A stretch of 64,000 nt of DNA from an uncultured Opitutia bacterium (GTDB taxonomy: Bacteria; Verrucomicrobiota; Verrucomicrobiia; Opitutales; Opitutaceae). Within the stretch, counting starts at the first letter, position 1; every line of letters starts with the position of its first letter. The DNA is taken from positions 1-64,000 of the forward strand of contig CAIRCN010000016.1 in NCBI GenBank assembly GCA_903877135.1, read 5' to 3'. Positions 887-24,913 of this stretch are shown here, in pieces. The position numbers were made by a program, and so were the translations under genes. The notes under the pieces are model-generated. The model was not told the DNA's origin. It ran no database searches and saw only the letters and a program-made list of their open reading frames with translations.

Positions 887-1207
887 TCAAGGGTTTGGAC
901 TGACTTGTTTATTTTTATTGAGCGTGCCCTTCGACGGGAAAAACCCGGAGAGCTTCTCCACCACCGGAGTCGCCCACGCGGGCTCGTTGCGCTGGTAGAT
1001 CCAGTTGAACCCGACCACGCTAAGGGCAACTAGCACCACGACCGTGAGCACGACCTTGTTCATCTGGGCGAGCTTGCGCAGCACGTAAACGGCGACGATG
1101 ACCGCCAGCACAGCGATGCCCAGCTCGGCCCAGAAGGCGGGCGGAATCTGCTTCAGTTTGTCGAGTGCGGTGGGCGCTGCGGTGGCGGCAGCGAAGATGA
1201 GCTTCAC
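887..1207 (-). CDS. Small membrane protein at the end of the complex I cluster
   Basis: This 106-residue protein has a short hydrophobic N-terminus (about residues 1-12) and two close hydrophobic segments (about 27-46 and 52-69), followed by a polar C-terminus ending in a Lys/Asn-rich tail. It starts 70 bp after the nuoN stop on the same strand and is probably the last gene of the operon. No domain is recognised. It could be an accessory or assembly factor for the adjacent complex, but that rests on position alone. Confidence 0.6.
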   Translation of the reverse strand: MKLIFAAATAAPTALDKLKQIPPAFWAELGIAVLAVIVAVYVLRKLAQMNKVVLTVVVLVALSVVGFNWIYQRNEPAWATPVVEKLSGFFPSKGTLNKNKQVSPNP

Positions 1208-1277: not shown

Positions 1278-2726
1278 TCAAACCCGCGGTGCCGCGGTGG
1301 TGACCCAGGCGAGCGAGTTGGAAATCGCGTCGAGCACTGGACCGGGGGCCACGCCCAGCGCGACAATCGCAGCGATCAGCAGCAGGCAGAGCACCTGCGT
1401 CGATCGGTCGAGGACGATCGGAACCTGGCCGGCCGCGGCGTCGCCGAACACCGCCTCGCGGATGACGCGGAGGTAATAGTAAACCGCGACGGCAGCGTTG
1501 ATCATCGTGATGATGACGAGGGCGAGGTGGCCGGTGGACAGCGCGGCGGTGAGGATCGAGAGTTTACCCATGAACCCGACGAACGGCGGGAGGCCGGCGA
1601 GCCCGAAGACGCCGACGAGCAGGGTGGCGGCGAGCAGCGGAGAGCGGCGGTGCAGGCCAGCCAGTTCGCTAATGGCGACGTTGGTGCCGTCGCGCGAGAC
1701 GCGGCTGATGACGACGAAGCAGGCGAGCACCATCAGCATGTAGCCGGTGATGTAGTAGAGCGACGCCGCGAAACCCGCCGTGCCGAGGGCGACGAAGCCG
1801 ACGATCGCATAGCCGGCGTGCGCGATGCCGGAGAAGCCGAGGAGGCGTTTGAAGTCGGTCTGGACGAGCGCGATCAGGTTGCCGTAGACCATCGAGGCGA
1901 TGGCGAGGCCGGCGAGGAGGAGGGCGATGGTGTCGTTGGCCGGCGAGGCGAGGGAGACGAAACGCACGAGCACGGCTACGGCGCCGATCTTGGGCAGCGT
2001 GGCGATGTAACCCGCGGTCTCGTTCGACGCGCCCTGATAAACGTCGGGCGTCCAGAAATGGAAGGGGAAGACGGCGAGTTTGTAGTAGAAACCGCAGAAC
2101 GTCAGCGCCAAGCCCGCCAGTGCGAGCGGCGTCGAGATCACGGGCTGGAGCCGCTCAACCATGAGCGGCAACGAGGTGGTGCCGGTGAGGCCGAACAGGT
2201 AGCTCAGGCCGAAGAGCATGAGGCCGTTGGCGGCGACGCCGAACATGATGTATTTGATGGCCGATTCCATCTGACTGCGCTGGCCCTCGCGCTCGCGCCG
2301 CATCGGCACCAGCAGGTAAAGCGGGAACGACGACAGTTCGAGGGCGATCACCAGTGTGATCGCGTCGACGCAACTCACGAGCATGAGGAGGCCGGAGACG
2401 CTCAGGGCGAGAAACAGGAAATACTCGGCCTTGATTCGGTCGCGGATGTCCGGCAGTGCGCCGCTCAGCAGCAGCACCCCGACAAATCCGCTCGACAGGA
2501 TGAGTTTGAGCAGTTGCGAGAACGCATCGACGCGGTAGGCACCGCTGAAGAGGACCGTGTGCTGGCCGAGCGTCGCGAGGGAGGCCGCCACGGCGGCCAG
2601 CGCCACGACGAGCGCGGTGGTGCGGGCGAGCACCCAGCGGGATTCGCCCAACGTGATCACGAACAACACAAACGCGCCCAGCAGCAGCACCAGTTCAGGG
2701 AGAAACGCGATGAAGGAGGAGATCAT
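1278..2726 (-). CDS. nuoN: NADH-quinone oxidoreductase-type subunit N (cluster 1)
   Basis: At 482 residues it has the usual NuoN length and hydrophobicity, about 14 transmembrane helices. The proton-channel residues are visible: Glu in ALELSSFPLY (TM5), Lys in YYKLAVFPFHFW (TM7), Lys in LPKIGA (TM8) and Lys in GFMGKLSIL (TM12). It is one of four antiporter-type subunits of cluster 1 and would sit next to NuoK at the inner end of the membrane arm. It starts 6 bp after nuoM and is followed by a small membrane protein. It moves protons (or Na+) across the cytoplasmic membrane, driven by ferredoxin- or NADH-linked quinone reduction. Confidence 0.95.
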   Translation of the reverse strand: MISSFIAFLPELVLLLGAFVLFVITLGESRWVLARTTALVVALAAVAASLATLGQHTVLFSGAYRVDAFSQLLKLILSSGFVGVLLLSGALPDIRDRIKAEYFLFLALSVSGLLMLVSCVDAITLVIALELSSFPLYLLVPMRREREGQRSQMESAIKYIMFGVAANGLMLFGLSYLFGLTGTTSLPLMVERLQPVISTPLALAGLALTFCGFYYKLAVFPFHFWTPDVYQGASNETAGYIATLPKIGAVAVLVRFVSLASPANDTIALLLAGLAIASMVYGNLIALVQTDFKRLLGFSGIAHAGYAIVGFVALGTAGFAASLYYITGYMLMVLACFVVISRVSRDGTNVAISELAGLHRRSPLLAATLLVGVFGLAGLPPFVGFMGKLSILTAALSTGHLALVIITMINAAVAVYYYLRVIREAVFGDAAAGQVPIVLDRSTQVLCLLLIAAIVALGVAPGPVLDAISNSLAWVTTAAPRV

Positions 2727-2732
2727 GCGGGT

Positions 2733-4241
2733 TCAGGGTAGGGCGGCGGCCGCCGGCAGCGCGTGGCCGACCTGCCCGAGCAGGTGGACGACGGTGGCAT
2801 GCATGGCATGAACGAAGGGCTGCGGGTGCAGGCCGATCCAGAAGACGAACACGAGCAGCGGGAGGAGGGTGACGATTTCGCGGAATTCCAGATCGTGGAG
2901 CTCGTGGTGCGCGGGGTTGGCGGTGCCGCCCCAGGCGACGCGTTGCAGCACGCGGAACATGTAGGCTGCGGCGATCACCACGCCGGGCACGGCGCAGGCG
3001 ACGAGAAGCTTCGAGTGGGCGAAGCCGCCAGCGAGGACGAGGAACTCACCGATAAAGCTGTTGGTGCCGGGGAAGCCGAGCGACGAGAGGCAGAACACGC
3101 CGAAGAAGGCCATGAACACCGGCATGAACCTGCCGATGCCGGCGGCGGCGGCGAGTTCGCGCGAGTGCAGGCGTTCGTAGATGATGCCGACGCAGATGAA
3201 GAGCGCGCCGGTGGTGACGCCGTGGTTGATCATCACCATCGTGGCGCCCTCGAGGCCGTTGATGTTGAGGACGAAGATGCCGAGGGTGGCGAAGCCCATG
3301 TGGCTCACGCTGGAGTAGGCGACAAGTTTTTTGAGGTCGCTCTGGGCGAGGGCCGTGAGGCCGCCGTAGAGGATGGCGACGACGGAGAGCGCAAGAATGG
3401 CGGGCGCGAAGACGTGGGTAGCGTGGGGCGTGATCGGCAGGCAAAACCGCAGGAAACCGTAGGTGCCCATCTTCAGGAGCACGCTCGCGAGCACCACGCT
3501 GCCGGCGGTCGGCGCCTCGACGTGCGCGGCCGGCAGCCAGGTATGGAATGGGAACATCGGCACCTTGATCGCGAAGGATATGAAGAACGCCGCGAATACC
3601 CAGAGTTGGAACGTGGCGCCGTAGGGCTGGCCCATCATGCCGGGGATGCTAAAGCTGCCGGTCTGCAGGCGGAGCGCGATCAGCGCGACCAGGAGGAAGA
3701 TCGAGCCGGCCATCGTGTAGATGAAGAATTTGATCGCGGCGTAAATTTTCCGCGGGCCGCCCCAGACGCCGATCAGCAGCGCCATCGGGATCAGCATCGC
3801 CTCCCAGAACATAAAGAAGAGGATCGCGTCGAGCGCGCTGAAGACGCCGATCATCGCCGTCTCCATCACGAGGAGGCAGATCAAAAACTCCTTCACGCGG
3901 GAGGTGATGTAGCGCCACGACGCCAGCACGCAGAGCGGCGTGATCAGCGTCGTGAGCAGCACGAGGAGCAGGCTGATGCCGTCGAGGCCGAGCGAGTAAT
4001 CGATCTTCAGCCAGGGAATCCATGCGGTGTGCTCGGTGAACTGGAAGTCGGCGGTGTCGGCGTTGAAGCGCCACCAGAGCGGCAGTGAGAGGAGCGCGAT
4101 GGCGGTGGTCCACACGAGCGTCCACCAGCGCAGGGCGCGCTCGCTGCGGATCAGCGCCGCGCCGGCGGCGGCGACCAGCGGGCTGAAGATGAGCACGCTG
4201 AGCAGCGGAAGTCCCGTGGTGAAACTGGAGAGCGTCGTCAT
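2733..4241 (-). CDS. nuoM: NADH-quinone oxidoreductase-type subunit M (cluster 1)
   Basis: This 502-residue antiporter-type subunit of the membrane arm carries all expected charged channel residues: Glu in FMFWEAMLIP (TM5), Lys in FAIKVPMFPFHTW (TM7), Lys in LLKMGTYGF (TM8), and Glu in NSFIGEFLVL (TM12), which is Glu rather than Lys as usual in NuoM. It overlaps the preceding antiporter gene by 4 bp (ATGA), implying translational coupling, and is followed by nuoN after 6 bp. Long open frames on the opposite strand here are composition shadows. Confidence 0.95.
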   Translation of the reverse strand: MTTLSSFTTGLPLLSVLIFSPLVAAAGAALIRSERALRWWTLVWTTAIALLSLPLWWRFNADTADFQFTEHTAWIPWLKIDYSLGLDGISLLLVLLTTLITPLCVLASWRYITSRVKEFLICLLVMETAMIGVFSALDAILFFMFWEAMLIPMALLIGVWGGPRKIYAAIKFFIYTMAGSIFLLVALIALRLQTGSFSIPGMMGQPYGATFQLWVFAAFFISFAIKVPMFPFHTWLPAAHVEAPTAGSVVLASVLLKMGTYGFLRFCLPITPHATHVFAPAILALSVVAILYGGLTALAQSDLKKLVAYSSVSHMGFATLGIFVLNINGLEGATMVMINHGVTTGALFICVGIIYERLHSRELAAAAGIGRFMPVFMAFFGVFCLSSLGFPGTNSFIGEFLVLAGGFAHSKLLVACAVPGVVIAAAYMFRVLQRVAWGGTANPAHHELHDLEFREIVTLLPLLVFVFWIGLHPQPFVHAMHATVVHLLGQVGHALPAAAALP

Positions 4242-6031
4242 CGGGCGAAAACGTTGAGGAAGAGGACGAGGAGCAGCACGAGCACCGCGCCGAGTCCGAA
4301 GGCGACCGTGAGGCTTTCCTGGAGGGCGCCGCGCTGGGCCGAGCGCAGCCGGCCGCCGAGGCTGCGGAAGGCGTTGGCGAAGCCGTCGACCGCGCCGTCG
4401 ATCACGCTGTTGTCAAAGACCGCAGAGAGCCGCGCGGTGACCATCAGCGGGACGAGTCCGCCGACGCGGTAGATTTCGCCGACGAAGGTGTCGATGAACT
4501 GAACGGGTTTCTTCGCAAGCCAGAGGAAGGCGCGGCCGCCGATGCGGTAGGGCCAGTCGAGGTCGAGGCTGATCTTCGCCTCGGGCTCAAGTTTCTTGAT
4601 CAGGAGGAAGAAACCGACGGCGGTGAAGAGGAGGATCTGGAGCGTCTCCGACACGTGGTAGGAGGTGTAGGGCTCGTAATCGACCGGGTAGGGCAGCATC
4701 CGGTAGAGATACGGCGTGTAGCAGCCAATAAAGATGCAGAGGAACGACGTGACGGCCATCGCCGCGATCATGTTCCACGGCGGCTCGGCGGCGCGCTCCC
4801 AAGTTTCCTTCGCGCAGTGGTTTTTGCCGAACCAGATAAAATAGGGGACCTTCAGGCCGGTGTGCAGGAAGGTGCCGGCAGAGGCGAGCATGAGGAGGAA
4901 GCCGACCCAGAGCTTGTGCTCCTCGAAGCCGGCCTGGACGATCATCGACTTGCTGACGAAGCCGCTGAAGAGCGGGAATGCCGAGATGGACAGGCCACCG
5001 ATGAGGGTGAAGGCGAAGGTCCAAGGCATCTTGGCGTAGAGGCCGCCGAGATCAGTGAACTTGCTCTTGCCGGTCATAAACAGCACGGAGCCGCAGCCCA
5101 TGAAGAGCAGGCCCTTGTAGAGGATGTGGGCAAAGGCGTGGGCGACCGCGCCGTTGATGGCAAGCTCGGTGCCGAGGCCGACGGCGGCCACCATGTAACC
5201 GACCTGGCTGATGATGTGGTAGGCGAGCAGGCGGCGGCTGTCGTTTTCCAGCACGGCGTAGACGACGCCGTAGAGCGCCATGATGACGCCGAGCACAGTG
5301 AGAATTTCCAGGCCGGCGAAGCCGCGGATCAGAGCGTAGACGGCGGTCTTGGTCGTGAACGCGCACATGAACACCGAGCCGTTGAAGGTGGCCTCGCCGT
5401 AGGCGTCGGGCAGCCAGGCGTGGAGCGGGGGCACGGCGGCGTTAAGGATGAAGCCCGTCATGATCAGCCATGCGGCGAGATCGGGGTGATGGACGTCGAA
5501 GAGGTTGAAGGCGAGGCTGCCGGTCGCGTGGTAATGCAGGATGATGCCCGCAAGCAGCGCCACGCCGCCCGCCACGTGGACCAGCAGGTAGCGGTAGCCG
5601 GTGGCGAGGGATTGCTCGCGGCCGCGGAACCAGATGAGGAAGACCGAGGAGAACGCCATCAACTCCCAGAAGAGAAAGAGGGTGAGCAGGTCGCCGGCGA
5701 AGATCGCGCCCAGCGAGCCGGCCACGTAGGTCCAGGCGACGCTGTGCTCGACGGCGCGTTTCACGTGCAGCCCATAGAGCGTGCCGAGGATGCACATCAG
5801 GCCCATGATGTAGGCGAAGACGGAGCTAAGCGCGTCGACGCGGCCGAAGGTCAGCGTGAACTGGAGGAAGTGCACGACGCCGAAGGTTCCTTTCGCCAGC
5901 GCAACGATGCGGGCGAAGGTCAGAATCGGAATCAGCAGGAGCCAGCCCTTGCGCAGCCGCTCCGGCAGCAGAGGCAGGAGGAGGGCGCCGAGGAGAAGGA
6001 TCAGCGAGGGATGCAGCCAGAGGTCACTCAT
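4238..6031 (-). CDS. MrpD-like antiporter subunit of complex I with C-terminal extension (NuoL role)
   Basis: The frame extends further upstream, but the start at 6031 (MSDLWLHP, 597 residues) fits the membrane topology and the short overlap with the gene before it. The body is a proton-conducting transporter domain. TM5 Glu is present (LFWELMAFS), TM8 Lys in TTKTAVYAL and TM12 Lys in GFVSKSMIV. The TM7 Lys position is Asn/Ala (LNAAVPPLHAWLP), a form typical of the MrpD-like branch. After about residue 430 there is an extra region: a membrane helix, an LDLDWPYR stretch, a long possibly amphipathic segment and a last transmembrane helix. This resembles the lateral helix of NuoL. It probably takes the distal NuoL place in cluster 1. 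Confidence 0.85.
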   Translation of the reverse strand: MSDLWLHPSLILLLGALLLPLLPERLRKGWLLLIPILTFARIVALAKGTFGVVHFLQFTLTFGRVDALSSVFAYIMGLMCILGTLYGLHVKRAVEHSVAWTYVAGSLGAIFAGDLLTLFLFWELMAFSSVFLIWFRGREQSLATGYRYLLVHVAGGVALLAGIILHYHATGSLAFNLFDVHHPDLAAWLIMTGFILNAAVPPLHAWLPDAYGEATFNGSVFMCAFTTKTAVYALIRGFAGLEILTVLGVIMALYGVVYAVLENDSRRLLAYHIISQVGYMVAAVGLGTELAINGAVAHAFAHILYKGLLFMGCGSVLFMTGKSKFTDLGGLYAKMPWTFAFTLIGGLSISAFPLFSGFVSKSMIVQAGFEEHKLWVGFLLMLASAGTFLHTGLKVPYFIWFGKNHCAKETWERAAEPPWNMIAAMAVTSFLCIFIGCYTPYLYRMLPYPVDYEPYTSYHVSETLQILLFTAVGFFLLIKKLEPEAKISLDLDWPYRIGGRAFLWLAKKPVQFIDTFVGEIYRVGGLVPLMVTARLSAVFDNSVIDGAVDGFANAFRSLGGRLRSAQRGALQESLTVAFGLGAVLVLLLVLFLNVFAR

Positions 6032-6284
6032 CGTAGTAATCCTCCCGTTGCATGATGCCGGCGTGGCCAAACCACTTCGAAACGTAAACGATCAACACGC
6101 ACGCGACGAAACCGAACCCGGCCCAGAAGCCGGGAATGTGCTCGGGTTTGGTGTGCGCGTGATGCTTGTCGACGATGGCGGGCACGGCGTCGACAAGCAG
6201 GAGCAGCACCAGCAGAGCGAGGCAGAGGATCACCACGGTCCTGAGGTGCCGGCGCAGAAATTCGATGAGGGCGAGGAGTTTCAT
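6024..6284 (-). CDS. Small two-helix membrane protein between two antiporter subunits of complex I
   Basis: This 86-residue protein has a basic N-terminus (EFLRRHLR), a very hydrophobic helix (about residues 16-32), a His-rich polar loop (DKHHAHTKPEH, about 39-49), a second helix (about 51-69) and an acidic tail ending REDYYDE. It overlaps the antiporter gene upstream by 4 bp (ATGA) and the one downstream by 8 bp, so it is translated within the complex I message. No family is recognised. Its locked position between two MrpD-like genes suggests a dedicated accessory subunit of the cluster 1 membrane arm. Confidence 0.75.
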   Translation of the reverse strand: MKLLALIEFLRRHLRTVVILCLALLVLLLLVDAVPAIVDKHHAHTKPEHIPGFWAGFGFVACVLIVYVSKWFGHAGIMQREDYYDE

Positions 6285-7756
6285 TGCACGACAGCTTGGG
6301 CAAAGCGCATGAAGAAGTCCGGATAGAAGCCGATCAGCACGGAGATCGCGGCGGTGACGCAGAGCGGAATCACCATCGCGAGCGGCGCCTCACCCTGGTG
6401 GTGATGCGCGTCGACCTCGGACGGTATTCCGAAGAAGCCCTGATAGATCACGGGGACGAAGTAGGCGGCGTTGAGGATGGTGCTACTAATAAGCACGAGG
6501 AGGATGCCGATCGAGCCAGCGTCGAGCGCGCCGACGAGCAGGTAGAGCTTGGAGATGAACCCGCCCACGGGCGGTGCGCCAATCATGCTCAGCGCGGCGA
6601 GCGCGAAGGCGCCAAAGGTCCACGGCATGGCGCGGCCGAGGCCGCTCATCTCAGAGATGTTTTTCTTGTGCGTGGCGACGTAGATCGCACCGGCGCAGAA
6701 GAACAGCGTGATCTTGGCGAAGGCGTGGATGGCGATGTGGATGAGGCCGCCCTCGATGGCGGTGGGCGTAAGCAGCGCCACGCCGAGGATGATGTAGGAC
6801 AGCTGGCTCACGGTGGAGTAGGCGAGCCGCGCCTTGAGGTTGTCCTTGCTCAGCGCGATGACGGAGCCGACGAGGATGGTGATCGAGACGAAATAGGCCG
6901 TGGGCAGGCCGAGGTGCAGCCGGTCCATCGTGTCGACGCCGAAGACGTAGAGCATCACGCGGACGGTGGAGAACACGCCGACCTTCACGACCGCGACGGC
7001 GTGGAGCAGGGCGCTGACCGGCGTGGGCGCGACCATGGCGCTCGGCAGCCAGTTGTGCAGCGGCATGACGCCGTTCTTGGCGAAGCCGAGGATGCAGCAG
7101 ATGTAGAGGAGGGTGATGACGCCGTTGTGGACACCGACGGGGAGGATGCCGGTGTGGACGTTGGTCGCGAAGTCGAGTGTGCCGGAGAGCACGTAGATAA
7201 GCACCATGGCCGGGAGGATGAGGCCCTTGGCGGTGGTCGTCAGGTAGGTGATGTATTTCCGCGCGCCCTCGTAGCTCTCGCCGTCCTGATGGTGGGCGAC
7301 GAGCGGGTAGGTGCAGACGCTGACGATCTCGTAGAAGAGGTAGAGCGTGAGGAGATTGTCGGCGAAGGCACAGCCGATGGCGCCGAAGAGTGCAAGGGCG
7401 AAGCAGGTGTTGAAGCGCGTCTGCTCATGCTCGTGCAGACCGCGCATGTAGCCGGCGGCGTAGAACACGGTGAGCACCCAAAGGAGCGAGGCCGCCACCG
7501 CGAAGATCATCGAGAGGGCGTCGGCCCGAAGCGTGAAGCTCAGGCCCGGCAGCAACTGGAAGAGGGTGTAGCGCAGCTTGTGACCAGCGAGGACGTCGGG
7601 AATCAGCGAGACGGTCAGGCCGAAGAGTGTGATGGCGGCGACCAGCGAGCAGGCTTCGCGAAGGTTCGGACGTTTGCCGGTAGCCATCACCAAACCCGCC
7701 CCGAGGAGCGGGGCGAGAATCGCGAACAGGAGGCGGATGTCTTGGGGCGCTGCCAT
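6281..7756 (-). CDS. MrpD-like Na+/H+ antiporter-type subunit of complex I (cluster 1)
   Basis: This 491-residue proton-conducting transporter is closest in motif style to MrpD and NuoL. The channel residues are present: Glu in LYLFYEIVSV (TM5), Lys in GFAKNGVMPLHNW (TM7), Lys in VVKVGVF (TM8) and Lys in GGFISKLYLL (TM12). A His-rich loop (DAHHHQGE) precedes the last helices. It starts 3 bp after nuoK. Together with the 597-residue MrpD-like protein, NuoM and NuoN it gives cluster 1 four antiporter-type subunits, where canonical complex I has three. Whether it carries H+ or Na+ cannot be told from sequence alone. Confidence 0.88.
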   Translation of the reverse strand: MAAPQDIRLLFAILAPLLGAGLVMATGKRPNLREACSLVAAITLFGLTVSLIPDVLAGHKLRYTLFQLLPGLSFTLRADALSMIFAVAASLLWVLTVFYAAGYMRGLHEHEQTRFNTCFALALFGAIGCAFADNLLTLYLFYEIVSVCTYPLVAHHQDGESYEGARKYITYLTTTAKGLILPAMVLIYVLSGTLDFATNVHTGILPVGVHNGVITLLYICCILGFAKNGVMPLHNWLPSAMVAPTPVSALLHAVAVVKVGVFSTVRVMLYVFGVDTMDRLHLGLPTAYFVSITILVGSVIALSKDNLKARLAYSTVSQLSYIILGVALLTPTAIEGGLIHIAIHAFAKITLFFCAGAIYVATHKKNISEMSGLGRAMPWTFGAFALAALSMIGAPPVGGFISKLYLLVGALDAGSIGILLVLISSTILNAAYFVPVIYQGFFGIPSEVDAHHHQGEAPLAMVIPLCVTAAISVLIGFYPDFFMRFAQAVVQ

Positions 7757-7759: not shown

Positions 7760-8086
7760 CTAGCTGTTGAGTTCCGAGATGTCCGTCGAGTGAATCGAGC
7801 GGTAGTTGCGGTAGACGGCGATGATGATGCTGAGCGCGATCGCGACCTCGGCGGCGGCGAGCCCCATGATGAAGAGAACGAAGATCTGGCCGACCGCCGG
7901 ATCGGGGGAAAAAAAGCGGTTTACAGTCATGATGTTCAGCGACGCCGCGCCAAAGATAAGTTCACCGGCGATCAGCATACCGATGAGGGTGCGGCGCCGG
8001 ATCAGGCCGTAGATGCCGACGGCGAGCAGGAAAGCGGCGACGAGGAAATAGGCCTCGGGGCGGTCGGAGAGGTGGGTGAAGTTCAT
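7760..8086 (-). CDS. nuoK: NADH-quinone oxidoreductase-type subunit K (cluster 1)
   Basis: This 108-residue, three-helix subunit has the NuoK/MrpC signature: a buried Glu in GELIFGAASLN (TM2) and another in AAAEVAIAL (TM3), both needed for ion translocation in the family. It starts with a 4-bp overlap with nuoJ (ATGA) and ends 3 bp before the MrpD-like gene. It forms the first proton half-channels beside NuoJ, NuoH and NuoA. Confidence 0.95.
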   Translation of the reverse strand: MNFTHLSDRPEAYFLVAAFLLAVGIYGLIRRRTLIGMLIAGELIFGAASLNIMTVNRFFSPDPAVGQIFVLFIMGLAAAEVAIALSIIIAVYRNYRSIHSTDISELNS

Positions 8087-8616
8087 TCCTTGGTCCTCCC
8101 AGAACGGGCGATCACTAGCGCACCCAAGATGGCGACGAGCAAGACGAGCGAGATCAACTCAAACGCCAAACTATAGGTGGTAAGCAGGGCGAGGCCGATG
8201 GCCTGCACTGAGCCGTCGTTGGCGAAGGCGGCGGGGACTTTCCACGGGCCGCCGAGGCTCAGCCGCGACACGGCGAAAAAGACGCCAAGGCCGACAAGCA
8301 CCGCGCCGAGGCCCCAGAGGGCGGCAAACGAACGTTGTTTCTCTTGGGCCGGTTCGTCGGTCTCGGAGAGCATGACGCCGAACACGATGGTCACGCAGAC
8401 GGCACCGACGTAGATCAGAATTTCCATCAGCGCGAGGAAGGGGCTGTGGAGAAACCAGTAGAGCCCAGCCAGACCGATGCAGCAGATCATCAGGCCGCAG
8501 ACGCCGCGGATGATGCGCGTGCTCAATGCGGCGATCAGCGCGCCGCCGAGGGTTGTGCCTACGGCGAGGCAGAAAATCGCACCGGTGATGTAGTCGGCAA
8601 ACGGAAAGTTGCTCAT
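8083..8616 (-). CDS. nuoJ: NADH-quinone oxidoreductase-type subunit J (cluster 1)
   Basis: This 177-residue membrane protein has five predicted helices. The TM3 motif FLALMEILIYVGAVCV carries the conserved Glu and Tyr-Val-Gly turn (the pi-bulge helix) of NuoJ. It overlaps nuoI and nuoK by 4 bp each. In complex I, NuoJ packs with NuoA, NuoH and NuoK near the quinone site and couples quinone reduction to ion pumping. Confidence 0.95.
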   Translation of the reverse strand: MSNFPFADYITGAIFCLAVGTTLGGALIAALSTRIIRGVCGLMICCIGLAGLYWFLHSPFLALMEILIYVGAVCVTIVFGVMLSETDEPAQEKQRSFAALWGLGAVLVGLGVFFAVSRLSLGGPWKVPAAFANDGSVQAIGLALLTTYSLAFELISLVLLVAILGALVIARSGRTKE

Positions 8617-9164
8617 GGCTGCTTTTGCTCAGGGGCGGGCGCTGGCGCAGCGGGGGTGGTTGGCGGCGGCGGGACGACCGGAGCCGGGGGCTGCGGGTGA
8701 GCCTTTAACCAGTCCTGTTTCTTTATTTCGGCTTTCCTAAAAAGATCCATCTTGCCGAAGTCGTCGCGGTTGAAACTGACGACGTTGTAATCTTTGGAAT
8801 ATTGAATGGCGTCGCTCGGGCATGCGTCCACACAGCAACCGCAGAGGCTGCACTGGGTGAAGTTCTGCTCGTATTTGGAGACAGATTTTCTCTTTTCACC
8901 CTCTTTTTTGAGGCCGTCGAGGTCAATGCAGTCGCTCGGGCAGGCGCGGACGCAGAGGCCGCAGGCGGTGCACTTGGTCTGCCCGGTCGCGGGGTCGATG
9001 GTGAGTTCGAGATGGCCGCGGAAGCGGTCGGGCATCTTCAGCGTCTGGTGCGGATATTGGACGGTGATAGTCGGCTTGACTGCCTGGCCAGCAGTAATGC
9101 GCATGCCCACAAGCAGGCTCTTGAAACCTTTAAACACCTCTGAAATGGACGAGAAAAGGCTCAT
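8613..9164 (-). CDS. nuoI: Complex I 2x[4Fe-4S] subunit I (cluster 1)
   Basis: The frame opens further upstream (to 9326), but the start at 9164 (MSLFSSISEVF) gives a 4-bp overlap with nuoH and the normal NuoI beginning, 183 residues. Two cluster motifs are visible: CTACGLCVRACP and CSLCGCCVDACP, which ligate the N6a and N6b iron-sulphur centres. The C-terminus ends in a long Pro/Ala-rich tail (about residues 157-183). In an enzyme without NuoEFG, this is the natural docking point for an external electron donor such as reduced ferredoxin. Confidence 0.95.
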   Translation of the reverse strand: MSLFSSISEVFKGFKSLLVGMRITAGQAVKPTITVQYPHQTLKMPDRFRGHLELTIDPATGQTKCTACGLCVRACPSDCIDLDGLKKEGEKRKSVSKYEQNFTQCSLCGCCVDACPSDAIQYSKDYNVVSFNRDDFGKMDLFRKAEIKKQDWLKAHPQPPAPVVPPPPTTPAAPAPAPEQKQP

Positions 9165-10171
9165 AGGATTTTCATCATCACGCCGGTCAGCAGCAGGGTG
9201 ACGAGCGAGACCGGAATGAGAATTTTCCAGGAAAGGTTGAGCAGGCTGTAGAATTGCGTTCGCGGAAACGTCCAGCGAATCCAGATCACGGTGAAGATGA
9301 GCGCATACAGTTTCACGAGGAACCACGCCGCGCCGAACCAGCCTCCGGAGAGCACGCCGATCGGACTTTGCCAGCCGCCGAGGAAGAGGATCGTGGCGAG
9401 GCTGCAGCCGACGACGATGTTCGCGTATTCGGCCATGAAGAAGACGCCGAAGCCCATGCCGCCGTATTCGGTGAAGGCGCCGGCGACGAGTTCGCTCTCA
9501 GCCTCCGCCATATCGAAGGGCGCGCGGTTCGTCTCGGCCAGCATGCAGATGAAAAAGATGATGAAGGTCACCGGCATGAACGGGTTGACCCAAACCTTCA
9601 GGAGATTCCAATGCCAGAAGCCGCCGGCCTGCTGGCGGACGATTTCGCCGAGGTTCATCGTGCCAGTGACCATCAGCATGGTAATCACGACGAGGAGCAT
9701 CGGTATCTCGTAGGCGACGTTCTGCGAAACGACGCGGGCGGAGGAGATGATGGCGAACTTGTTGCGCGAGGCCCAGCCGCCGAGCATGAGCGCCATGACG
9801 TTGATCGAGCCGAAGGAGAAGACGAACAGGAGGCCGATGTTGAGGTTGCAGGCGACGATGGTGTCGCCGAACGGAATCACAGCGAGGCAGAGCAGCGGTG
9901 GCGCCATCACCATGAGCGGGGCGGCGCGGAAGAGGAGCGAGTCGGTGCCGGGCGGCACCATGACCTGCTTGGCGAGGAGTTTAATACCGTCGGCCACAGG
10001 CTGGAGGATGCCGGCCCAGCCGGCCTCGTTGGGACCGGGGCGGCGCTGGATGCGGCCGGCGCCCTTGCGTTCGGCGAGGACGAGATAGGCCGCGTTGGCC
10101 GCGGTGAACGCGATGATGCCCACGAGGTAGAGCAGGACCCTGACGGGTTCGATGGTGAGGAATTTCATCAT
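9161..10171 (-). CDS. nuoH: Complex I quinone-site membrane subunit H (cluster 1)
   Basis: This 336-residue membrane subunit shows NuoH landmarks: LAERKGAGRIQRRPGPNEAG in the first loop, LQPVADGIKLLAKQ, and the acidic loop DMAEAESELVAGAFTEYGG that lines the quinone channel. It overlaps nuoD and nuoI by 4 bp each. The shorter form here (336 against 409 residues in cluster 2) shows that the two clusters are distinct paralogues, not a recent duplication. Confidence 0.95.
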   Translation of the reverse strand: MMKFLTIEPVRVLLYLVGIIAFTAANAAYLVLAERKGAGRIQRRPGPNEAGWAGILQPVADGIKLLAKQVMVPPGTDSLLFRAAPLMVMAPPLLCLAVIPFGDTIVACNLNIGLLFVFSFGSINVMALMLGGWASRNKFAIISSARVVSQNVAYEIPMLLVVITMLMVTGTMNLGEIVRQQAGGFWHWNLLKVWVNPFMPVTFIIFFICMLAETNRAPFDMAEAESELVAGAFTEYGGMGFGVFFMAEYANIVVGCSLATILFLGGWQSPIGVLSGGWFGAAWFLVKLYALIFTVIWIRWTFPRTQFYSLLNLSWKILIPVSLVTLLLTGVMMKIL

Positions 10172-11307
10172 CGGTCGATGTCGGGGATGACGAGGTCAAG
10201 GCTCCCCATCATGGCCAGAGCGTCAGGTAGGATCATGCCGCGGCTCGCCTCTTCATAGAGACTGAGGTTGGAGAACGACGGCGTGCGGAGCTTCACGCGG
10301 TAAGGAATTTCTTTTCCGTCGCTCACGATGCGCACCATGAACCGGCCGCGGGCCGCCTCGACGGCGTAACAGGTTTCGCCGACAGGTAGTTTGAGAACGC
10401 GCGGCACCTTGCCGATGAACGGACCCGCGGGAATCTGGTCGAGTGCCTGGTCAATGATACGGAGACTCTGCTCCATCTCATCCATGCGCACCATGTAGCG
10501 GGCCATCGAGTCGCACTCGTGGTAGACCGGAATCTTGAAATCGAGCTTCGGGTAGACCGAGTAGGGTTCGGCGCGGCGCACATCATAAGCGACGCCAGAG
10601 CCGCGGATGACGGGACCTGTGGCGCCGTATTTGCGGCAGAGTTCGGCGCTGATCGGGCCGATTTCTTCGAGGCGCTTGCGGAGGATGATGTTATCCGTGA
10701 CGAGGTCACGATACATCTTCAGGCGCGGCTGCATGTGCTTCACGAAGTCGCGCGTGCCCTTGAGGAACGCATCGTCGACATCGTTGTAGAGTCCGCCGAA
10801 TCGGTAGTAGCAATAGGTTAGCCGCGCGCCGCAGAGGGCCTCAAGTAGGTCGAGAATTTTTTCCCGGTCGTCGAAGGCGTAGAGGATCGGCGTGAAGCCA
10901 CCGAGGTCGAGCAACAACGCACCCCACCAGACCATGTGGCTGGAGATGCGGTTGAGTTCGGAGGTGATGACGCGGGCGTATTCGGCGCGGAGAGGAACCT
11001 CGATCTTGGCAGCGCGCTCGACGGCACCCACGAAGGCGTGGGTGTAGTGCATCGCCGAGAGGTAGTCGATGCGGCTGGTATTGGGGAGAAACTTCGCCCA
11101 GGTGCGGTTCTCACCCATTTTCTCGTGCATCCGGTGAATGTAGCCTATGATGGGTTCGGCGCGCTGAATCCACTCGCCATCCATCGTCATCAGCACGCGG
11201 AGCACGCCGTGGGCCGCAGGATGCTGCGGCCCGAGGTTGAGCACAAATGTTTCCTGCGGAGCGTCGCCGGCAGTCGCGAGGTGAAGGGTTTCCTTGGTGA
11301 CGTTCAC
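10168..11307 (-). CDS. nuoD: Complex I 49-kDa-type subunit D (cluster 1)
   Basis: This 379-residue protein of the NuoD/hydrogenase large-subunit family forms the quinone pocket with NuoB and NuoH. The quinone-site His lies in LGPQHPAAHG near residue 30. The NiFe-binding cysteines of hydrogenases are absent, as expected for NuoD. It overlaps nuoC and nuoH by 4 bp (ATGA). It is not fused to nuoC. No nuoE, nuoF or nuoG follows, where operons of the 14-subunit enzyme usually place them. Confidence 0.95.
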   Translation of the reverse strand: MNVTKETLHLATAGDAPQETFVLNLGPQHPAAHGVLRVLMTMDGEWIQRAEPIIGYIHRMHEKMGENRTWAKFLPNTSRIDYLSAMHYTHAFVGAVERAAKIEVPLRAEYARVITSELNRISSHMVWWGALLLDLGGFTPILYAFDDREKILDLLEALCGARLTYCYYRFGGLYNDVDDAFLKGTRDFVKHMQPRLKMYRDLVTDNIILRKRLEEIGPISAELCRKYGATGPVIRGSGVAYDVRRAEPYSVYPKLDFKIPVYHECDSMARYMVRMDEMEQSLRIIDQALDQIPAGPFIGKVPRVLKLPVGETCYAVEAARGRFMVRIVSDGKEIPYRVKLRTPSFSNLSLYEEASRGMILPDALAMMGSLDLVIPDIDR

Positions 11308-11747
11308 GGCTGATAATCCTTCCGGAGAGGATGAAAGGTCGCGTCCTCCGGAAGGAGGAATGGCTTCATGTTGGGATGGCCGGTGAAACAGATGCCAAAG
11401 AAATCGTGCGTCTCGCGCTCATGCCAGTTGGCGCCGGGAAATACCGCAGAGATTGTTGGCAATTCGGGCTCGGCGCGGGGAACGCGGGTGCGAACCACGA
11501 CGCGCAGCGGCGAGGTGAAATGGAAAAAATCGTAGACGACCTCCATCTCGTTTTGCGCGATCCAGTCCACGCCGGTGACGGCATCTATCGAGAACCCCGC
11601 GCGATCCGCGATCTCGGCGGCAGCCACGACCTGATTGCTCGGCACCGCGACGCTCAGGTGATAGCCCTTGAGCGCGAAGTCGCAGGTTTCGACCTGGCCG
11701 GCGAGCGCAGTGTAGTCTGCCGTGAGTTGTTCCAGCGAAGGGTTCAT
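11304..11747 (-). CDS. nuoC: Complex I 30-kDa-type subunit C (cluster 1)
   Basis: This short 147-residue NuoC has the family's C-terminal signature: [23 protein letters not shown] and then LRKDY near the end. It overlaps nuoB and nuoD by 4 bp each. The cluster 2 NuoC is 216 residues, so this is a compact version. NuoC packs against NuoD and NuoB in the peripheral arm and carries no cofactor. Confidence 0.93.
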
Positions 11748-12268
11748 TCCTGGAGTTTGGCGATTGGGAAGCGCCGCTTGCCGGTAAGTTTTTCTTCGAG
11801 TTTCAGGATGCCCTCAATCAGCGCCTCGGGACGCGGTGGGCAGCCAGGCACATAAACATCGACCGGGAAGAGCTTGTCCACGCCCTCGACGACGGCATAT
11901 TGGCCGGGGTAAACGAAGGGGCCGCCGGAGAGGGCGCAGTTGCCCATGGCGATCACCCATTTGGGCTCCAGCATCTGGTCGTAGAGGAGCTTGACGGCGG
12001 GGGCCATCTTCTTGTTCACCGTGCCGGCTACGATCATCACGTCGGCTTGGCGCGGCGACGGACGGAAGACCTCGGCACCAAAGCGCGAGAGGTCGAAGCG
12101 CGCCATGCCGGCGGCCATCATTTCGATGGCGCAGCAGGCGAGACCGAAGGTGAGGGGCCAGAGGGAGTTGGCCCGACCCAGCGCCAGCAGATCGTCGAGC
12201 ATAGCAAACCGGACGATTTGCGAGCACTCGACGGGAATCTCGGGCTTGTCGCTCAGTGGCGCTTCCAT
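11744..12268 (-). CDS. nuoB: Complex I N2 cluster subunit B (cluster 1)
   Basis: This 174-residue protein holds the four cysteines of the N2 [4Fe-4S] centre, the last carrier before quinone: C45 and C46 in LACCAIE, C111 in GNCALSGG and C143 in PGCPPRP. The start at 12268 overlaps the end of nuoA by 16 bp, and its stop overlaps nuoC by 4 bp. All ligands are intact, so the quinone-reducing end of the cluster 1 complex appears functional. Confidence 0.95.
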
Positions 12269-12639
12269 TCGAAGACTCCTTTTTTCCAGGCGTAGACGAT
12301 CACGAGAGACAGAATGCCAACGAAGATCGTCAGTTCGACGAGATCGCGGATGGCGAAATGCCGGCCATAAACCAGCGCGACTGGGATCAAAAACAAAACA
12401 TCAACCGCGAACGCCACGAAGATGAGCGCGTAGAGGTAGTAGACAGCACTGTAGCGAATCCATGCGTCGCCAATAGGATCCATACCGCACTCGATGGCCT
12501 GGCCGGTTTTGTCGAGAGTGTTACGCGTCCAGCGAGGAGACAGAAAGTAAACCAACACAAATGGTCCGAAGGCAAAGGCCAGCCCGCCCAGAAAAAAGGC
12601 GAAGAGGTAAATCAGTTCGTCGGTGCTGACGCTTTGCAC
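12253..12639 (-). CDS. nuoA: Complex I membrane subunit A (cluster 1)
   Basis: This 128-residue, three-helix protein shows the NuoA signature between TM1 and TM2: a CGMDP motif (residues about 51-55) followed by GDAWIRYS and the [17 protein letters not shown] helix with its conserved acidic residue. It is the first nuo gene of cluster 1, 48 bp after korB on the same strand, which suggests that electron donor and complex share a message. The CGMDP Cys belongs to the loop that covers the quinone site. Confidence 0.95.
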
Positions 12640-12687: not shown

Positions 12688-13575
12688 TCAACCTGCAGCC
12701 GCGACTTTCGGCCGCAAAGTCGCCTGACGCTCGCGGATCTGGCTGTCGTAGGTCGGGGGCGGGTTGGGGTTGCGGTAGAAAACACCGGTATAAAGTTCCT
12801 TGCCGTAATCCTGCGCCAGTTCCATCGCGCGCAGCCAATTCGACGGGTCGTGACCTTCGGCGGCAAGTTTGCGCATTTTCGTTTTCTGAATCTTTAACTG
12901 ATCGTCGGGATCGCCAAAGGTGATGCAGGGCGACTGGACGTTGACGAAGGCAAATCCAGGGTAGCGGATCGCCTCTTCGATCATCTTCGCCAAGCCATCC
13001 ATATCAGCCGGCACGCCCTGCGCGACGAAGCCCGCGCCATAGCTGAGGACGTAGAGGAGCGGGTTCACTGGGTCTTCCATGCTGCCATAGGTGCTACTGG
13101 AAGTCTTCGCGCCACGCGGTGTCGTGGGGGACAACTGGCCCTTGGTGAGGCCGTAAATATGGTTGTCCATCACGATGTAGGTGAGATCGAGATTGCGCCG
13201 GATGGCGTGGGGCACATGGCCGCCGCCGATCGAAAAGCCGTCGCCATCGCCACCCGCCACGAGAACGAGCAGGTCGGGATTGGCCATCTTGATGCCCTGC
13301 GCCACCGGCAGCGCGCGACCGTGCACGGTGTTGAAACCGTAGGCGGTCGTATAGCCGGGGATGCGGCTTGAGCAGCCGATGCCCGAGATGAAGGCGATCT
13401 CGTGGGACGGGCGGCCGATGGCAACCAGCGCCCGGTAGAGGGCTGTGACCACGCCGTAGTCGCCGCAACCGGGGCACCAGATGGGTTTCAGGTCGCTGCG
13501 AAAATCCTTGGTGGTAAGAGGGGCTGGCGCGACAAGGGTAGACTCGCAGCCGCAATCAGTGGTGGAAGTGATCAT
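12688..13575 (-). CDS. korB: 2-oxoacid:ferredoxin oxidoreductase, beta subunit
   Basis: This 295-residue TPP-binding subunit carries CPGCGDYG (C34, C37), a third Cys in GIGCSSRIP (C68) and a fourth at C217, matching the four ligands of the single [4Fe-4S] cluster in this family. The TPP/Mg motif is GGDGDGFSIGGGH, followed by an Asn in VMDNHIYGLTKGQ. It oxidatively decarboxylates a 2-oxoacid (most likely 2-oxoglutarate) with CoA and passes electrons to ferredoxin. It starts 8 bp after korA and lies directly before nuoA of cluster 1. The substrate call is by family resemblance. Confidence 0.92.
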   Translation of the reverse strand: MITSTTDCGCESTLVAPAPLTTKDFRSDLKPIWCPGCGDYGVVTALYRALVAIGRPSHEIAFISGIGCSSRIPGYTTAYGFNTVHGRALPVAQGIKMANPDLLVLVAGGDGDGFSIGGGHVPHAIRRNLDLTYIVMDNHIYGLTKGQLSPTTPRGAKTSSSTYGSMEDPVNPLLYVLSYGAGFVAQGVPADMDGLAKMIEEAIRYPGFAFVNVQSPCITFGDPDDQLKIQKTKMRKLAAEGHDPSNWLRAMELAQDYGKELYTGVFYRNPNPPPTYDSQIRERQATLRPKVAAAG

Positions 13576-13583: not shown

Positions 13584-15344
13584 TTAGGCGGAGGCGGTTG
13601 CCCGGGTCATCGCGGAGATTCTCCGGAGGACGTCATCGGGGGTGATCGGGTTGGCGCCGCTCTTGGCGAGGGAAGTGAACTCGGCGGGCGTGTTCACCCA
13701 CATGCGGATGATGCGGTGGAGTTGGCCCTGGTGGGATTGCTCGACCACGAGGCAGCGGCGCAGCGATTTGAAGAAGTCCTGGTAAACCTCCTCGGCCACT
13801 GGATAAAGCAGCTTGGGAATAAGAAGTTTGACCGAGAGGCCCTGCGCGCGAGCGGTGCGCACTGCTTCGAGGGCCACTCCGGCAATGCTGCCCCAACTGA
13901 TCACTCCGACCTCGGCGGTGGGGTCGCCCTCGAGGAGGAAGAGGTCGCGGCGCTGCTTCAGGGGATTCAGCTTGTTGAGCCGCTTGTTGTTCATCTGTTC
14001 GTGCATCTCGCCGCTGCTGCATGGGTCGCCGTGCTCATTGTGCTCGATGCCGGCGGCGAGGTAGCTGCCACCCTTCATGCCGGGGTGACTAAGCGGGCTG
14101 ATACCAGACTCGGTCAGCCGGAAACGCGTGTAATCCACCATCTCCGCCGCGGTCGGCTCAAGCCGCTCGACAAGTTTGAAGCGTGAACGGTCGACCGGAT
14201 CGACGATGTCCTTCCGCTGCGCGATTTCCTGGTCGGAAAGCACGATGACCGGCGTCTGATACTGCTCGGCGATGTTGAACGCCTCGACGGTAATGCCGAA
14301 CATGTCTTCGACGCTGATCGGCGCCAGAATCGGGCGGACCGTGTCGCCATGGGCTGAAAAAGCGGCGGCAAAAAGATCGGCCTGCTCGGATTTCGTGGGC
14401 AGACCGGTGGAGGGACCGCCACGCTGGACGTTTACGCAGACGAGCGGCAGTTCGGCCAGGCTGGCGAGGCCCATGACTTCGGATTTCAGCGACAAGCCGG
14501 GGCCGGAGGTGGCGGTCATGGCCTTGCGGCCGGCAAACGAGGCTCCGACGACGGCGGCGATGCCGGCGATCTCATCCTCGGCCTGCAGGAGCGAGCCGCC
14601 ATGCTTCCAAATATCTCTCTGGAGGTGCTGCATGATCTCCGTGGCCGGAGTGATGGGATAACCGCCAAAAAACTTGCAACCCGCGAAGAGCGCCGCGGAG
14701 GCACAGAGCTCGTTGCCGTCGGTGATGAGGCGCTTGCCTACTCCGGCTTGCGGCGGGTTAAAATGCCAGTCACCTTCGAGCGGATTCTTATCGGCGTAGT
14801 CGAGTCCGGCAGCGTAAGCGCGCTCGTTGCCCTGTAGAATTTCGGCGCCTTTCTTGGCAAATTTTTTCCGGAGGCCTTCCAAAATACTCTGGCGGGCTAG
14901 CCCGAACCAGCCGGCGAGGAGGCCAAGCACGACGTTGTTCTTCGCCTGAAGGGTGCCAGCGGATTTCATCGCGAGTTCGGCCATCGGCACCGCGCGCACT
15001 ATCGCCGGTTTGACGGCCAAGGGGATGGCATCGGGGGCCACCTTGGTCTTCTGCTCGTAGATCACGACCGTTCCGGGACCGACGGGCAATTCACCGCCGA
15101 AGCGCAGGAAATCCTCCCAATTAAGGACGACGGCCACCGTGAGCGTGCCGCCCGGATTCAGCACCGGGGTCGAGGCCACGCGCAGCCGGCAGGATGACTC
15201 GCCCCCGCGGATTTGTGAGCCGAAGCTCTTGGTGAGGATAGCGTAATAGCCATCCTGCGCCAAGGCGGAGATCAGGGATTCACCGGCAGAGACGATTCCG
15301 TCCCCGCCTGAACCGGCCATGCCGATAATCAGGTCGTTTAACAT
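13584..15344 (-). CDS. korA: 2-oxoacid:ferredoxin oxidoreductase, fused gamma-alpha subunit
   Basis: This 586-residue protein fuses the gamma domain (about residues 1-190, starting GMAGSGGDGIVSAG) to the alpha domain (about 205-586) with GYPITPATEIM and the SGPGLSLKSE loop. The fusion is typical of the KorA type. With KorB it makes a two-subunit enzyme with no internal 2[4Fe-4S] ferredoxin domain, so it needs an external ferredoxin; one is encoded 33 bp upstream. The set ferredoxin-korA-korB sits between two complex I clusters that both lack the NADH module. It acts in the cytoplasm, in an oxidative or reverse TCA-type step. Confidence 0.92.
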   Translation of the reverse strand: MLNDLIIGMAGSGGDGIVSAGESLISALAQDGYYAILTKSFGSQIRGGESSCRLRVASTPVLNPGGTLTVAVVLNWEDFLRFGGELPVGPGTVVIYEQKTKVAPDAIPLAVKPAIVRAVPMAELAMKSAGTLQAKNNVVLGLLAGWFGLARQSILEGLRKKFAKKGAEILQGNERAYAAGLDYADKNPLEGDWHFNPPQAGVGKRLITDGNELCASAALFAGCKFFGGYPITPATEIMQHLQRDIWKHGGSLLQAEDEIAGIAAVVGASFAGRKAMTATSGPGLSLKSEVMGLASLAELPLVCVNVQRGGPSTGLPTKSEQADLFAAAFSAHGDTVRPILAPISVEDMFGITVEAFNIAEQYQTPVIVLSDQEIAQRKDIVDPVDRSRFKLVERLEPTAAEMVDYTRFRLTESGISPLSHPGMKGGSYLAAGIEHNEHGDPCSSGEMHEQMNNKRLNKLNPLKQRRDLFLLEGDPTAEVGVISWGSIAGVALEAVRTARAQGLSVKLLIPKLLYPVAEEVYQDFFKSLRRCLVVEQSHQGQLHRIIRMWVNTPAEFTSLAKSGANPITPDDVLRRISAMTRATASA

Positions 15345-15377: not shown

Positions 15378-15611
15378 TTACTGACCGTCGTTGCCGATCG
15401 ACTCGGTGGCGCACGCCGCCAGAGCTTCCTCGGCTAGGGCGATTTCCTCGCCCGTGACTGGCTGCTGCTTGACGAAGGAAACCCCGGTGTCGTCGTTGCG
15501 ACCGAAAAGGTCGGGGGCAATCACCCTGCATTGATCGCAATCGATGCAGGAGGAGTCGGTATAGTAGCGCCCGGAAACATTGTCCGGGATGCGGTCGGAG
15601 AGAGTGGCCAT
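15378..15611 (-). CDS. Small single-cluster ferredoxin
   Basis: An upstream ATG at 15665 exists, but the start at 15611 gives a 77-residue protein with no odd leader. Cys 22, 25 and 28 (CIDCDQC) plus Cys 67 (ACATESIG) can bind one [4Fe-4S] cluster. The usual Pro after the fourth Cys is Ala here. Motif order and spacing fit the small ferredoxins with CIDCDxCR, not the 2x[4Fe-4S] clostridial type. It is the first gene of the ferredoxin-korA-korB set, 123 bp after nuoN of cluster 2. By position it is the likely acceptor for KorAB. Confidence 0.85.
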   Translation of the reverse strand: MATLSDRIPDNVSGRYYTDSSCIDCDQCRVIAPDLFGRNDDTGVSFVKQQPVTGEEIALAEEALAACATESIGNDGQ

Positions 15612-15734
15612 GCGCCAAGGATACCAGCCCGCACCGGAGTGCGCAGCGCGTGCATTTGCCAACACTACGCAGATTTTGCTCTGGTGCCGGTCCGCCGGGA
15701 AACTCGGCCCAAGAGTTTGTGTTTTCGCCCCGGA

Positions 15735-22274: not shown

Positions 22275-22277
22275 AGT

Positions 22278-22589
22278 TCAGCCCTTCAGCCGCGTCGCGT
22301 CCTGCAGCCGGATGTTTTGCTGGTGGCGGTAGATTGCGATGACCAGCGCGAGGCCGACGGCTGCCTCGGCAGCGGCGACCGCGATGGCGAAAATCACGAA
22401 GATCACGCCGGTGGCGGGCAATGGCGCGGGGTTGAAGCGCCAGAAGGCAATGAAGTTGAGGTTGGCGGCGTTGAGCATCAGCTCGATGCCAAGCAGCACG
22501 AGGATGGTGTTGGTGCGGGAGAGCGCACCAGCGAGACCGATGCAGAACAGGGCGCTCGAGATCAGCAGGCAGAGCTGGAGGGTGTTCAT
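22278..22589 (-). CDS. nuoK: NADH-quinone oxidoreductase subunit K (cluster 2)
   Basis: This 103-residue, three-helix subunit has the conserved Glu in LGIELMLNAANLNF (TM2) and in AAAEAAVGLAL (TM3). It overlaps nuoJ by 4 bp and ends 3 bp before nuoL. Sequence wording is closer to typical proteobacterial NuoK than the cluster 1 copy is. Confidence 0.95.
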   Translation of the reverse strand: MNTLQLCLLISSALFCIGLAGALSRTNTILVLLGIELMLNAANLNFIAFWRFNPAPLPATGVIFVIFAIAVAAAEAAVGLALVIAIYRHQQNIRLQDATRLKG

Positions 22590-24902: not shown

Positions 24903-24913
24903 GGTGGGTGGGG

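Follow-up and report, generated by a model that had tools for sequence, protein, structure and literature searches.

Which proteins take the place of NuoL in a complex I operon that encodes none, and do they belong to the enzyme? This question is raised by a 64,000-nucleotide stretch of DNA from an uncultured Opitutia bacterium (family Opitutaceae; contig CAIRCN010000016.1, positions 1 to 64,000, forward strand), here called the window. Its minus strand carries, at 887-12639, a set of complex I genes (cluster 1) that includes four antiporter-type subunits, MrpD1, MrpD2, NuoM and NuoN. The reading order is ferredoxin, 2-oxoacid:ferredoxin oxidoreductase (Kor; 15665-12688), NuoA-B-C-D-H-I-J-K, MrpD1, the small protein s86, MrpD2, NuoM, NuoN and a 106-amino-acid protein (Table 1). 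We propose, with a probability of about 0.72, that the genes of cluster 1 specify a single enzyme, namely a complex I that lacks the NADH module, probably takes electrons from ferredoxin and reduces quinone, with four antiporter-like subunits and the cassette MrpD1-s86-MrpD2 at the distal place of NuoL. Reduced ferredoxin from the Kor encoded directly upstream would feed in electrons; these would pass to quinone, and ions would be pumped via the membrane arm with its four antiporter-like subunits. Along the membrane, K would be followed by N, M, MrpD1 and finally MrpD2 as the outermost subunit, whose C-terminal lateral helix would reach back across MrpD1 and M. That the products form a single assembled complex, as well as its subunit order, electron donor, direction, ion species and stoichiometry, we infer. 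The plan itself is already published as "green complex I" of rhizobia, in which two MrpD-like subunits stand in place of NuoL (PMC9040806 and PMC7415380).

A test for the complex I core found NuoA, B, C, D, H, I, J and K together with NuoM and NuoN, all in cluster 1. The operon is tightly packed; the end of s86 overlaps the start of MrpD2, counted from its ATG, by 8 bases. MrpD1 scored 822 bits on the NCBIfam "subunit D" antiporter model NF006236 (cut-off 663), and MrpD2 scored 758 bits on the corresponding model NF009310 (cut-off 564). On the NCBIfam NuoL model (cut-off 407.5) the two proteins reached only 210.8 and 154.6 bits, respectively. A tree was computed for 36 antiporter-type proteins (NuoL, M, N, MrpA, HyfB/D/F and the Mrp subunits D0, D1 and D2); in it, MrpD1 and MrpD2 each formed a clade of their own (support 100/100), apart from the NuoL/MrpA/HyfD clade, NuoM and NuoN. 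The MrpD2 clade also took in members from Mrp operons and from haloarchaea, and the third Mrp subunit, D0, joined NuoN (93/97). Since MrpD1 and MrpD2 are clades of their own, NuoL is absent from cluster 1 and not hidden there. These findings bear out the original prediction that two distinct MrpD-like proteins of 597 and 491 amino acids stand where NuoL would be and, with NuoM and NuoN, bring the antiporter-type subunits to four. The two genes were read correctly; a third gene within the same interval, s86, had been overlooked.

The gene order is conserved among relatives. Of 61 genomes sampled from the host family, 15 (our own included) have a close MrpD2 (at least 60% identity), and the 14 relatives show the order A-B-C-D-H-I-J-K-MrpD1-s86-MrpD2-M-N over the part that their contigs cover. 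Named genomes were scanned as well and yielded at least 573 relatives (581 stretches), of which the best 80, ranked by likeness to this MrpD2, were analysed; the resulting distribution is a minimum and is biased towards close relatives. All 13 genes stood in order in 44 of the 80 loci, and the setting was that of complex I in 70; five others were Mrp operons, two were variants and three were too short to tell. By taxon, these loci comprised 37 from Thermodesulfobacteriota, 18 from Verrucomicrobiota, 2 from Pseudomonadota, 11 assigned with uncertainty to Myxococcota (labelled merely "Deltaproteobacteria") and 12 without assignment. The closest named relative among the matches listed was an Opitutaceae metagenome-assembled genome (MAG; 85%), a match that puts the window within or close to this family.

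Two loci bear on the position of the subunits in the membrane. In L097 (Desulfobia) and L098 (Desulfocapsa), the order K-M-MrpD1-s86-MrpD2-N is attached to another core. Their M, MrpD1 and MrpD2 are of cluster 1 type (64-71% identity to the window), whereas NuoD, H and N of L098 are nearest to rhizobial ones (45, 51 and 46%; NuoD is equally near that of the canonical complex I on contig C14 of our genome) and only 34-40% identical to those of cluster 1. The NuoM and NuoN trees agree with a second core in both loci, their N being unlike the N of cluster 1. Because M-MrpD1-s86-MrpD2 occurs on different cores while N stays with the core, M, MrpD1 and MrpD2 fit a distal block. The two loci thus support the putative membrane order K-N-M-MrpD1-MrpD2 without proving it. 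The Desulfocapsa MAG (RB_MAG_00021) also holds a normal green operon (L133). In another locus, a complete green operon is immediately preceded by a NuoM/NuoN pair (L118:3-2075) that may be a second copy in tandem.

tblastn with NuoF and NuoG of the same genome gave no match anywhere in the window; NuoE was not searched. Among the best 80 loci, a NuoF/G-like match was found in one. Kor and ferredoxin genes are the upstream neighbour in 4 of the 10 host-family loci with more than 3 kb visible upstream of NuoA, and in 3 of those 4 (our own, G006 and G043) Kor is followed by a second complex I gene set of the 2M type. Because Kor is a neighbour and the NADH module is missing, we read cluster 1 as a putative ferredoxin:quinone oxidoreductase.

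The small gene between MrpD1 and MrpD2 is a nearly constant member of the cassette. An s86 homologue was found by tblastn in 92 of 95 MrpD1-MrpD2 gaps, and two further ones by reading the gap, with another query matching there too. In the haloarchaeal locus L154 the annotated D1 and D2 genes overlap and leave no space for it. The conserved motifs are PGFW..FGF..C and EDYY. Neither this s86 nor the copy of the Mrp operon L053 had a match in Pfam or NCBIfam; twelve members searched against NCBIfam gave weak rows only, scattered over unrelated families, and the s86 alignment had no credible match in PDB, the best row being a light-harvesting protein (E 0.0077). s86 may be a hitherto undescribed subunit that sits where MrpD1 and MrpD2 meet.

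A structural model of MrpD2 was calculated with AlphaFold2. Because an alignment of 14 sequences gave a poor model (predicted local distance difference test [pLDDT] 58.8), one of 94 sequences was used (pLDDT 88.4, predicted template modelling score 0.83). Residue numbers are those of the model, the first Met not being counted. Following a transmembrane helix (TM) at 456-475, the model predicts a single long C-terminal helix at 492-595, in line with the original prediction of a NuoL-like C-terminal extension; confidence is low for residues 551-580, and the model does not resolve the bend that leads into the last TM. In VIA, residues 2-513 aligned with 1-561 of E. coli NuoL (7z84_L; Z 44.9, root mean square deviation [rmsd] 3.3, 483 residues aligned), and MrpD (7qru_D) gave Z 45.1, rmsd 2.2 and 439 aligned residues. 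The length of the helix segment was counted between the conserved D491 and G567. In 78 MrpD2 of green complex I it was 77 residues (67 sequences) or 78 (11 sequences), and it was 77 in both variants. Nine MrpD2 of Mrp operons had 74, 80, 82 (four) and 84 (three) residues; five of undecided operon type had 77 (three), 78 and 84 (L113). By hydropathy, the gap between TM15 and TM16 is ~87 residues in this MrpD2 and ~88 in that of the L053 Mrp operon, as compared with ~70 in E. coli NuoL, ~80 in the canonical NuoL of this genome and ~105 in its 2M NuoL. A helix lengthened for the fourth subunit was therefore rejected for green versus Mrp, the segment being no longer than in operons with three antiporter subunits. 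According to the paper on the membrane-bound sulfane sulfur reductase (MBS) of Pyrococcus (PMC7684303), helix length tracks the number of antiporter subunits. From these counts the green complex looks like an exception to that rule, or like one whose helix stops short of NuoN.

The same cassette occurs in Mrp operons with three D-like subunits (L050, L051, L053, L054, L109, L110, L111, L120 and L136, and the haloarchaeal L154), in the order E-F-G-MbhD-MbhE/MnhB-C-D0-D1-s86-D2 (by Pfam for L053 and by tblastn for the others). The haloarchaeal operon (L154:1087-9650), which lacks s86, lies on a plasmid; it too has three D-like subunits and an Asn at TM7 of MrpD2. Trees were built from hand-picked loci (58, 52, 45 and 46 MrpD2 or MrpD1 rows, outgroups not counted), with rows shorter than 500 amino acids (390 for MrpD1) excluded. 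L113, though similar to L109, was excluded from the Mrp set of the approximately unbiased (AU) tests on account of its truncated contig; L052 is labelled Mrp by its D0 neighbour alone, since its contig begins there. In the tree of full-length MrpD2, Mrp rows from deltaproteobacterial lineages fell inside green rows. Placing all Mrp rows together was rejected by the AU test both for the full length (p 0.0076; 8 versus 37 rows) and for the body up to residue 481 (p 0.0029; 8 versus 38 rows); these p values are weakened, because the groups were compared after the first tree had been seen. When only the helix and the last TM were used, the 8 Mrp rows formed one side of a branch (Shimodaira-Hasegawa-like approximate likelihood ratio 99).

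The body and the helix also differ in their identity to the window MrpD2. Body and helix identities were 78% versus 24% for L111, 74% versus 25-28% for L109, L110 and L113, 67% versus 32% for L120, and 67% versus 23% for L136. The helices of these six rows lay 3.5 to 6.4 residual standard deviations (SD) under a line fitted to 83 other rows, which themselves ranged from -1.8 to +2.5 residual SD; the 83 "green" rows of this fit include the two variants and four rows of undecided type. The distant Mrp rows of the host family (L050, L052, L053 and L054) were 2.3 to 2.7 residual SD below the line. Identity drops at about residue 500, just past the motif DLDWFYR. Fast divergence of the helix in Mrp complexes, rather than domain exchange, would account for this contrast, and we give it a little short of an even chance. 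The helices of different Mrp groups are mutually unlike (L111 is 30% identical to L136 and 26% to L110), the L111 helix matches the best green one (34%) at least as well as its three best Mrp counterparts (26-30%), and the helix-only tree has long branches. Within one Mrp group, however, the helix keeps pace with the body, roughly as it does among green rows (93% and 84% for L109-L110; 74% and 54% for L109-L120), whereas between Mrp and green the fall sets in at about residue 500. We tentatively suggest, at somewhat less than even odds, that the lateral helix is the address label of a modular arm: the MrpD2 body would have been swapped repeatedly between Mrp and complex I, the junction lying near residue 500, while the helix and last TM remained with the host complex or were remodelled for it. 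Our first reading of the MrpD2 tree, as movement of the entire cassette, was dropped. The MrpD1 tree showed less mixing of Mrp and green rows and followed the complex type better, which leaves the MrpD2 body as the part for which exchange has the best support. If the exchange reading is true, a redox enzyme and a secondary antiporter share interchangeable tips, and a four-subunit arm was built without the longer helix of the 2M complex.

Of 97 MrpD2 sequences, 96 carry Asn at the TM7 site; the remaining one, from L118, carries Ser. Glu in TM5, Lys in TM8 and Lys in TM12 are each conserved in 97/97, and MrpD1 keeps the expected charged residues (TM7 Lys in 89/89). The original prediction of an Asn in place of the TM7 Lys in the 597-amino-acid subunit thus applies to the family at large. 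The same Asn is found in Mrp operons, in S. meliloti and in L154. Since it occurs in Mrp operons too, it is not tied to complex I; it is probably a family trait older than the move into complex I. Its presence in both kinds of operon suggests that the first half-channel of MrpD2 may work differently or be closed. Both clusters of the window had further been said to carry one subunit without the TM7 Lys. This is so (Asn in MrpD2; Leu in the second NuoM of cluster 2, 17198-18751, and in 5/5 of that NuoM type, our own included), but as a mark shared by complexes with four pumps the loss of Lys had to be rejected. The canonical-complex NuoM on contig C14 (L066:17726-19249; relatives L160-L178) has Leu at this site in 20/20, our own included, besides the Asn of MrpD2 in Mrp operons. 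In the tree, the C14 NuoM groups with the second NuoM of the 2M cluster (100/97).

Pumping subunits generally require the TM7 Lys, which counts against MrpD2 as an ordinary channel, as does the fixation of the substitution (96/97). MrpD2 may all the same be a proton channel like the others, with another residue, e.g. the TM8 Lys, as a substitute; this is quite possible, if somewhat on the doubtful side. It agrees with the invariance of the Glu in TM5 and the Lys in TM8 and TM12, and with the NuoM of the host family's canonical complex I, which is fixed without the TM7 Lys. Absence of the Lys alone therefore need not mean a dead channel.

We consider it very unlikely that MrpD1-s86-MrpD2 is a separate Na+/H+ antiporter encoded within the operon of an 11-subunit complex I without NuoL, which would have overturned the original prediction. 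The same three genes are present in true Mrp operons, and the NCBIfam name of both proteins is antiporter subunit D. However, the families MNHE (MrpE) and PhaG (MrpG) had no match in the genome (97% complete, 87 contigs); each search was positive in 6 of 14 control genomes. The genome's 15 PF00361 matches fall in the two clusters of the window, in the canonical complex I on C14 and in a hydrogenase-4-like cluster on contig C65, with no further Mrp-type cluster. In relatives the cassette stays between NuoK and NuoM, and the rhizobial operon, otherwise reshuffled, has K-D1-small-D2-M-N intact. MrpD2 also retains a lateral-helix-like segment of fixed length. As far as sequence tells, the MrpD-like genes look like part of complex I and not like a separate antiporter. 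Similarly slim is the chance that MrpD2 is a NuoL diverged past recognition, with MrpD1 as the sole added subunit: it shows a NuoL-like TM15, lateral helix and TM16 and can be aligned with NuoL over most of its length, but its clade with Mrp and haloarchaeal members, its low score on the NuoL model and its TM7 Asn and TM8 Lys are all unlike NuoL.

Several points weigh against the proposed single ferredoxin-fed complex. The genome is 97% complete, and an Mrp operon could sit in the missing piece. The complex I on C14 carries NuoF and a NuoG-like protein, which could in principle be shared with cluster 1. Kor adjoins the operon in only four of the ten loci, so the case for ferredoxin as donor draws mostly on the lack of NuoE/F/G. 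The order of the subunits along the membrane is likewise a proposal. Finally, four subunits would have to be strapped together with a lateral helix that does not exceed in length the one of Mrp operons with three antiporter subunits.

Table 1. Positions of the genes of cluster 1, its upstream neighbours and cluster 2 in the window
Feature	Position	Strand	Basis
106-amino-acid protein closing cluster 1, candidate member only	887..1207	-	Pfam and NCBIfam: no match
NuoN	1278..2726	-	TIGR01770, 330.6 bits, slightly below cut-off 332.6; tree groups it with NuoN (100/100)
NuoM	2733..4241	-	TIGR01972, 594 bits, cut-off 263.8
MrpD2, 597 amino acids from ATG, TM7 Asn, C-terminal lateral helix and last TM (predicted)	4238..6031	-	NF009310
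s86, 86 amino acids, two hydrophobic stretches (read by eye), without known family	6024..6284	-	Pfam and NCBIfam: no match
MrpD1, 491 amino acids, antiporter-like, without C-terminal extension, TM7 Lys present	6281..7756	-	NF006236
NuoK	7760..8086	-	PF00420
NuoJ	8083..8616	-	PF00499
NuoI, two 4Fe-4S motifs (cysteines read in sequence)	8613..9164	-	Fer4 families
NuoH	9161..10171	-	PF00146
NuoD	10168..11307	-	PF00346
NuoC	11304..11747	-	PF00329
NuoB	11744..12268	-	PF01058
NuoA	12253..12639	-	PF00507
Kor, beta subunit	12688..13575	-	PF02775, PF12367
Kor, fused alpha/gamma subunit	13584..15344	-	PF01855, PF01558
Small ferredoxin, adjoining Kor in those relatives that have Kor	15378..15665	-	PF13370
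Cluster 2, 2M-type complex I: N, M2, M1, L (670 amino acids), K, J, H, I, D, C, B, A	15735..27771	-	NCBIfam, Pfam, translations

Cluster 2 reaches four antiporter subunits by a different route, as had been proposed: NuoL, two NuoM and NuoN, in place of two MrpD-like subunits, NuoM and NuoN. These four were above their NCBIfam cut-offs; H, an I-like protein and D were identified by Pfam, and the rest were read from translations. tblastn gave no NuoF/G match for cluster 2 in the window, and the TM15-TM16 gap of its NuoL, longer than the canonical one, fits the description of 2M complexes. Cluster 2 is followed at 27880-31403 by genes for molybdenum cofactor synthesis, with MoaC (28572-29060) and MoaA (30387-31403) identified by Pfam and MoaE- and MoeA-like genes recognised by eye only. 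The cluster on C65 (L068:5746-15736), which is like hydrogenase-4 or formate hydrogenlyase, encodes two similar HyfB-like subunits (653 and 651 amino acids) and a fused 30/49 kDa-type subunit.

Our results touch two old questions, the driving of the distal end of complex I by electron transfer and the function of the lateral helix. Closely related distal subunits occur in a redox pump and in antiporter operons, with a helix that changes with the complex, and so offer a natural series. With four antiporter subunits and a helix no longer than that of three-subunit operons, experiments on chimeras and on the ratio of H+ to electrons are well defined. The open-licence literature that we searched gave no account of this variant from Verrucomicrobiota or Desulfobacterota, nor of helix exchange; earlier reports are quite possible. 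What seems to be new is the variant without NADH module and its spread, the s86 cassette that it shares with Mrp operons, a helix of constant length, and the different behaviour of body and helix.

Among known systems, the Mrp operons with three D-like subunits have MrpD1, s86 and MrpD2 in the same order as cluster 1, s86 missing only in the haloarchaeal one. They have E, F, G, MbhD/E, B and C genes where cluster 1 has the redox arm, and the lateral helix of their MrpD2 is unlike that of complex I. An Mrp operon of Nitrospira is perhaps of the same three-D kind (PMC7784846). The MBS of Pyrococcus, which supplied the best PDB sequence match of the MrpD2 profile (6u8y_X), likewise has duplicated MrpD-like subunits, one with a lateral helix (6u8y); it differs in having two antiporter subunits, sulfane sulfur chemistry and a redox arm attached to the opposite end of the membrane arm (PMC7684303). 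The 2M complex I (Chadwick 2018, as cited in PMC9040806 and PMC7784846) shares with cluster 1 the number of four antiporter subunits. It keeps NuoL, with a longer TM15-TM16 segment, and adds a second NuoM, whereas cluster 1 has one NuoM and no NuoL. In Complex_I_3 of Ca. Manganitrophaceae, compared here by its description alone, NuoL is replaced by two MrpD-like subunits, as in cluster 1. According to PMC9040806 it has five antiporter subunits, two of them NuoM, and a 26-amino-acid insert in the lateral helix of MrpD2, and is proposed to reduce ferredoxin via reverse electron flow; here there are four such subunits and a segment of 77-78 residues.

The closest system is the rhizobial green complex I. 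MrpD1, a small gene and MrpD2 stand between NuoK and NuoM in both (gene order seen in S. meliloti), MrpD2 has Asn at TM7 in both, and the S. meliloti MrpD2 is ~53% identical to that of the window. The S. meliloti operon contains NuoE/F/G and has a rearranged order, in contrast to cluster 1 with its canonical collinear order and no NADH module, and the S. meliloti NuoN branches apart from NuoN of cluster 1 type. Because the window has no NuoF/G match and the order is canonical, cluster 1 is a variant, not a strict member of the rhizobial form. It extends the design of rhizobia and Manganitrophaceae to Verrucomicrobiota and lineages of sulfate reducers, without the NADH module.

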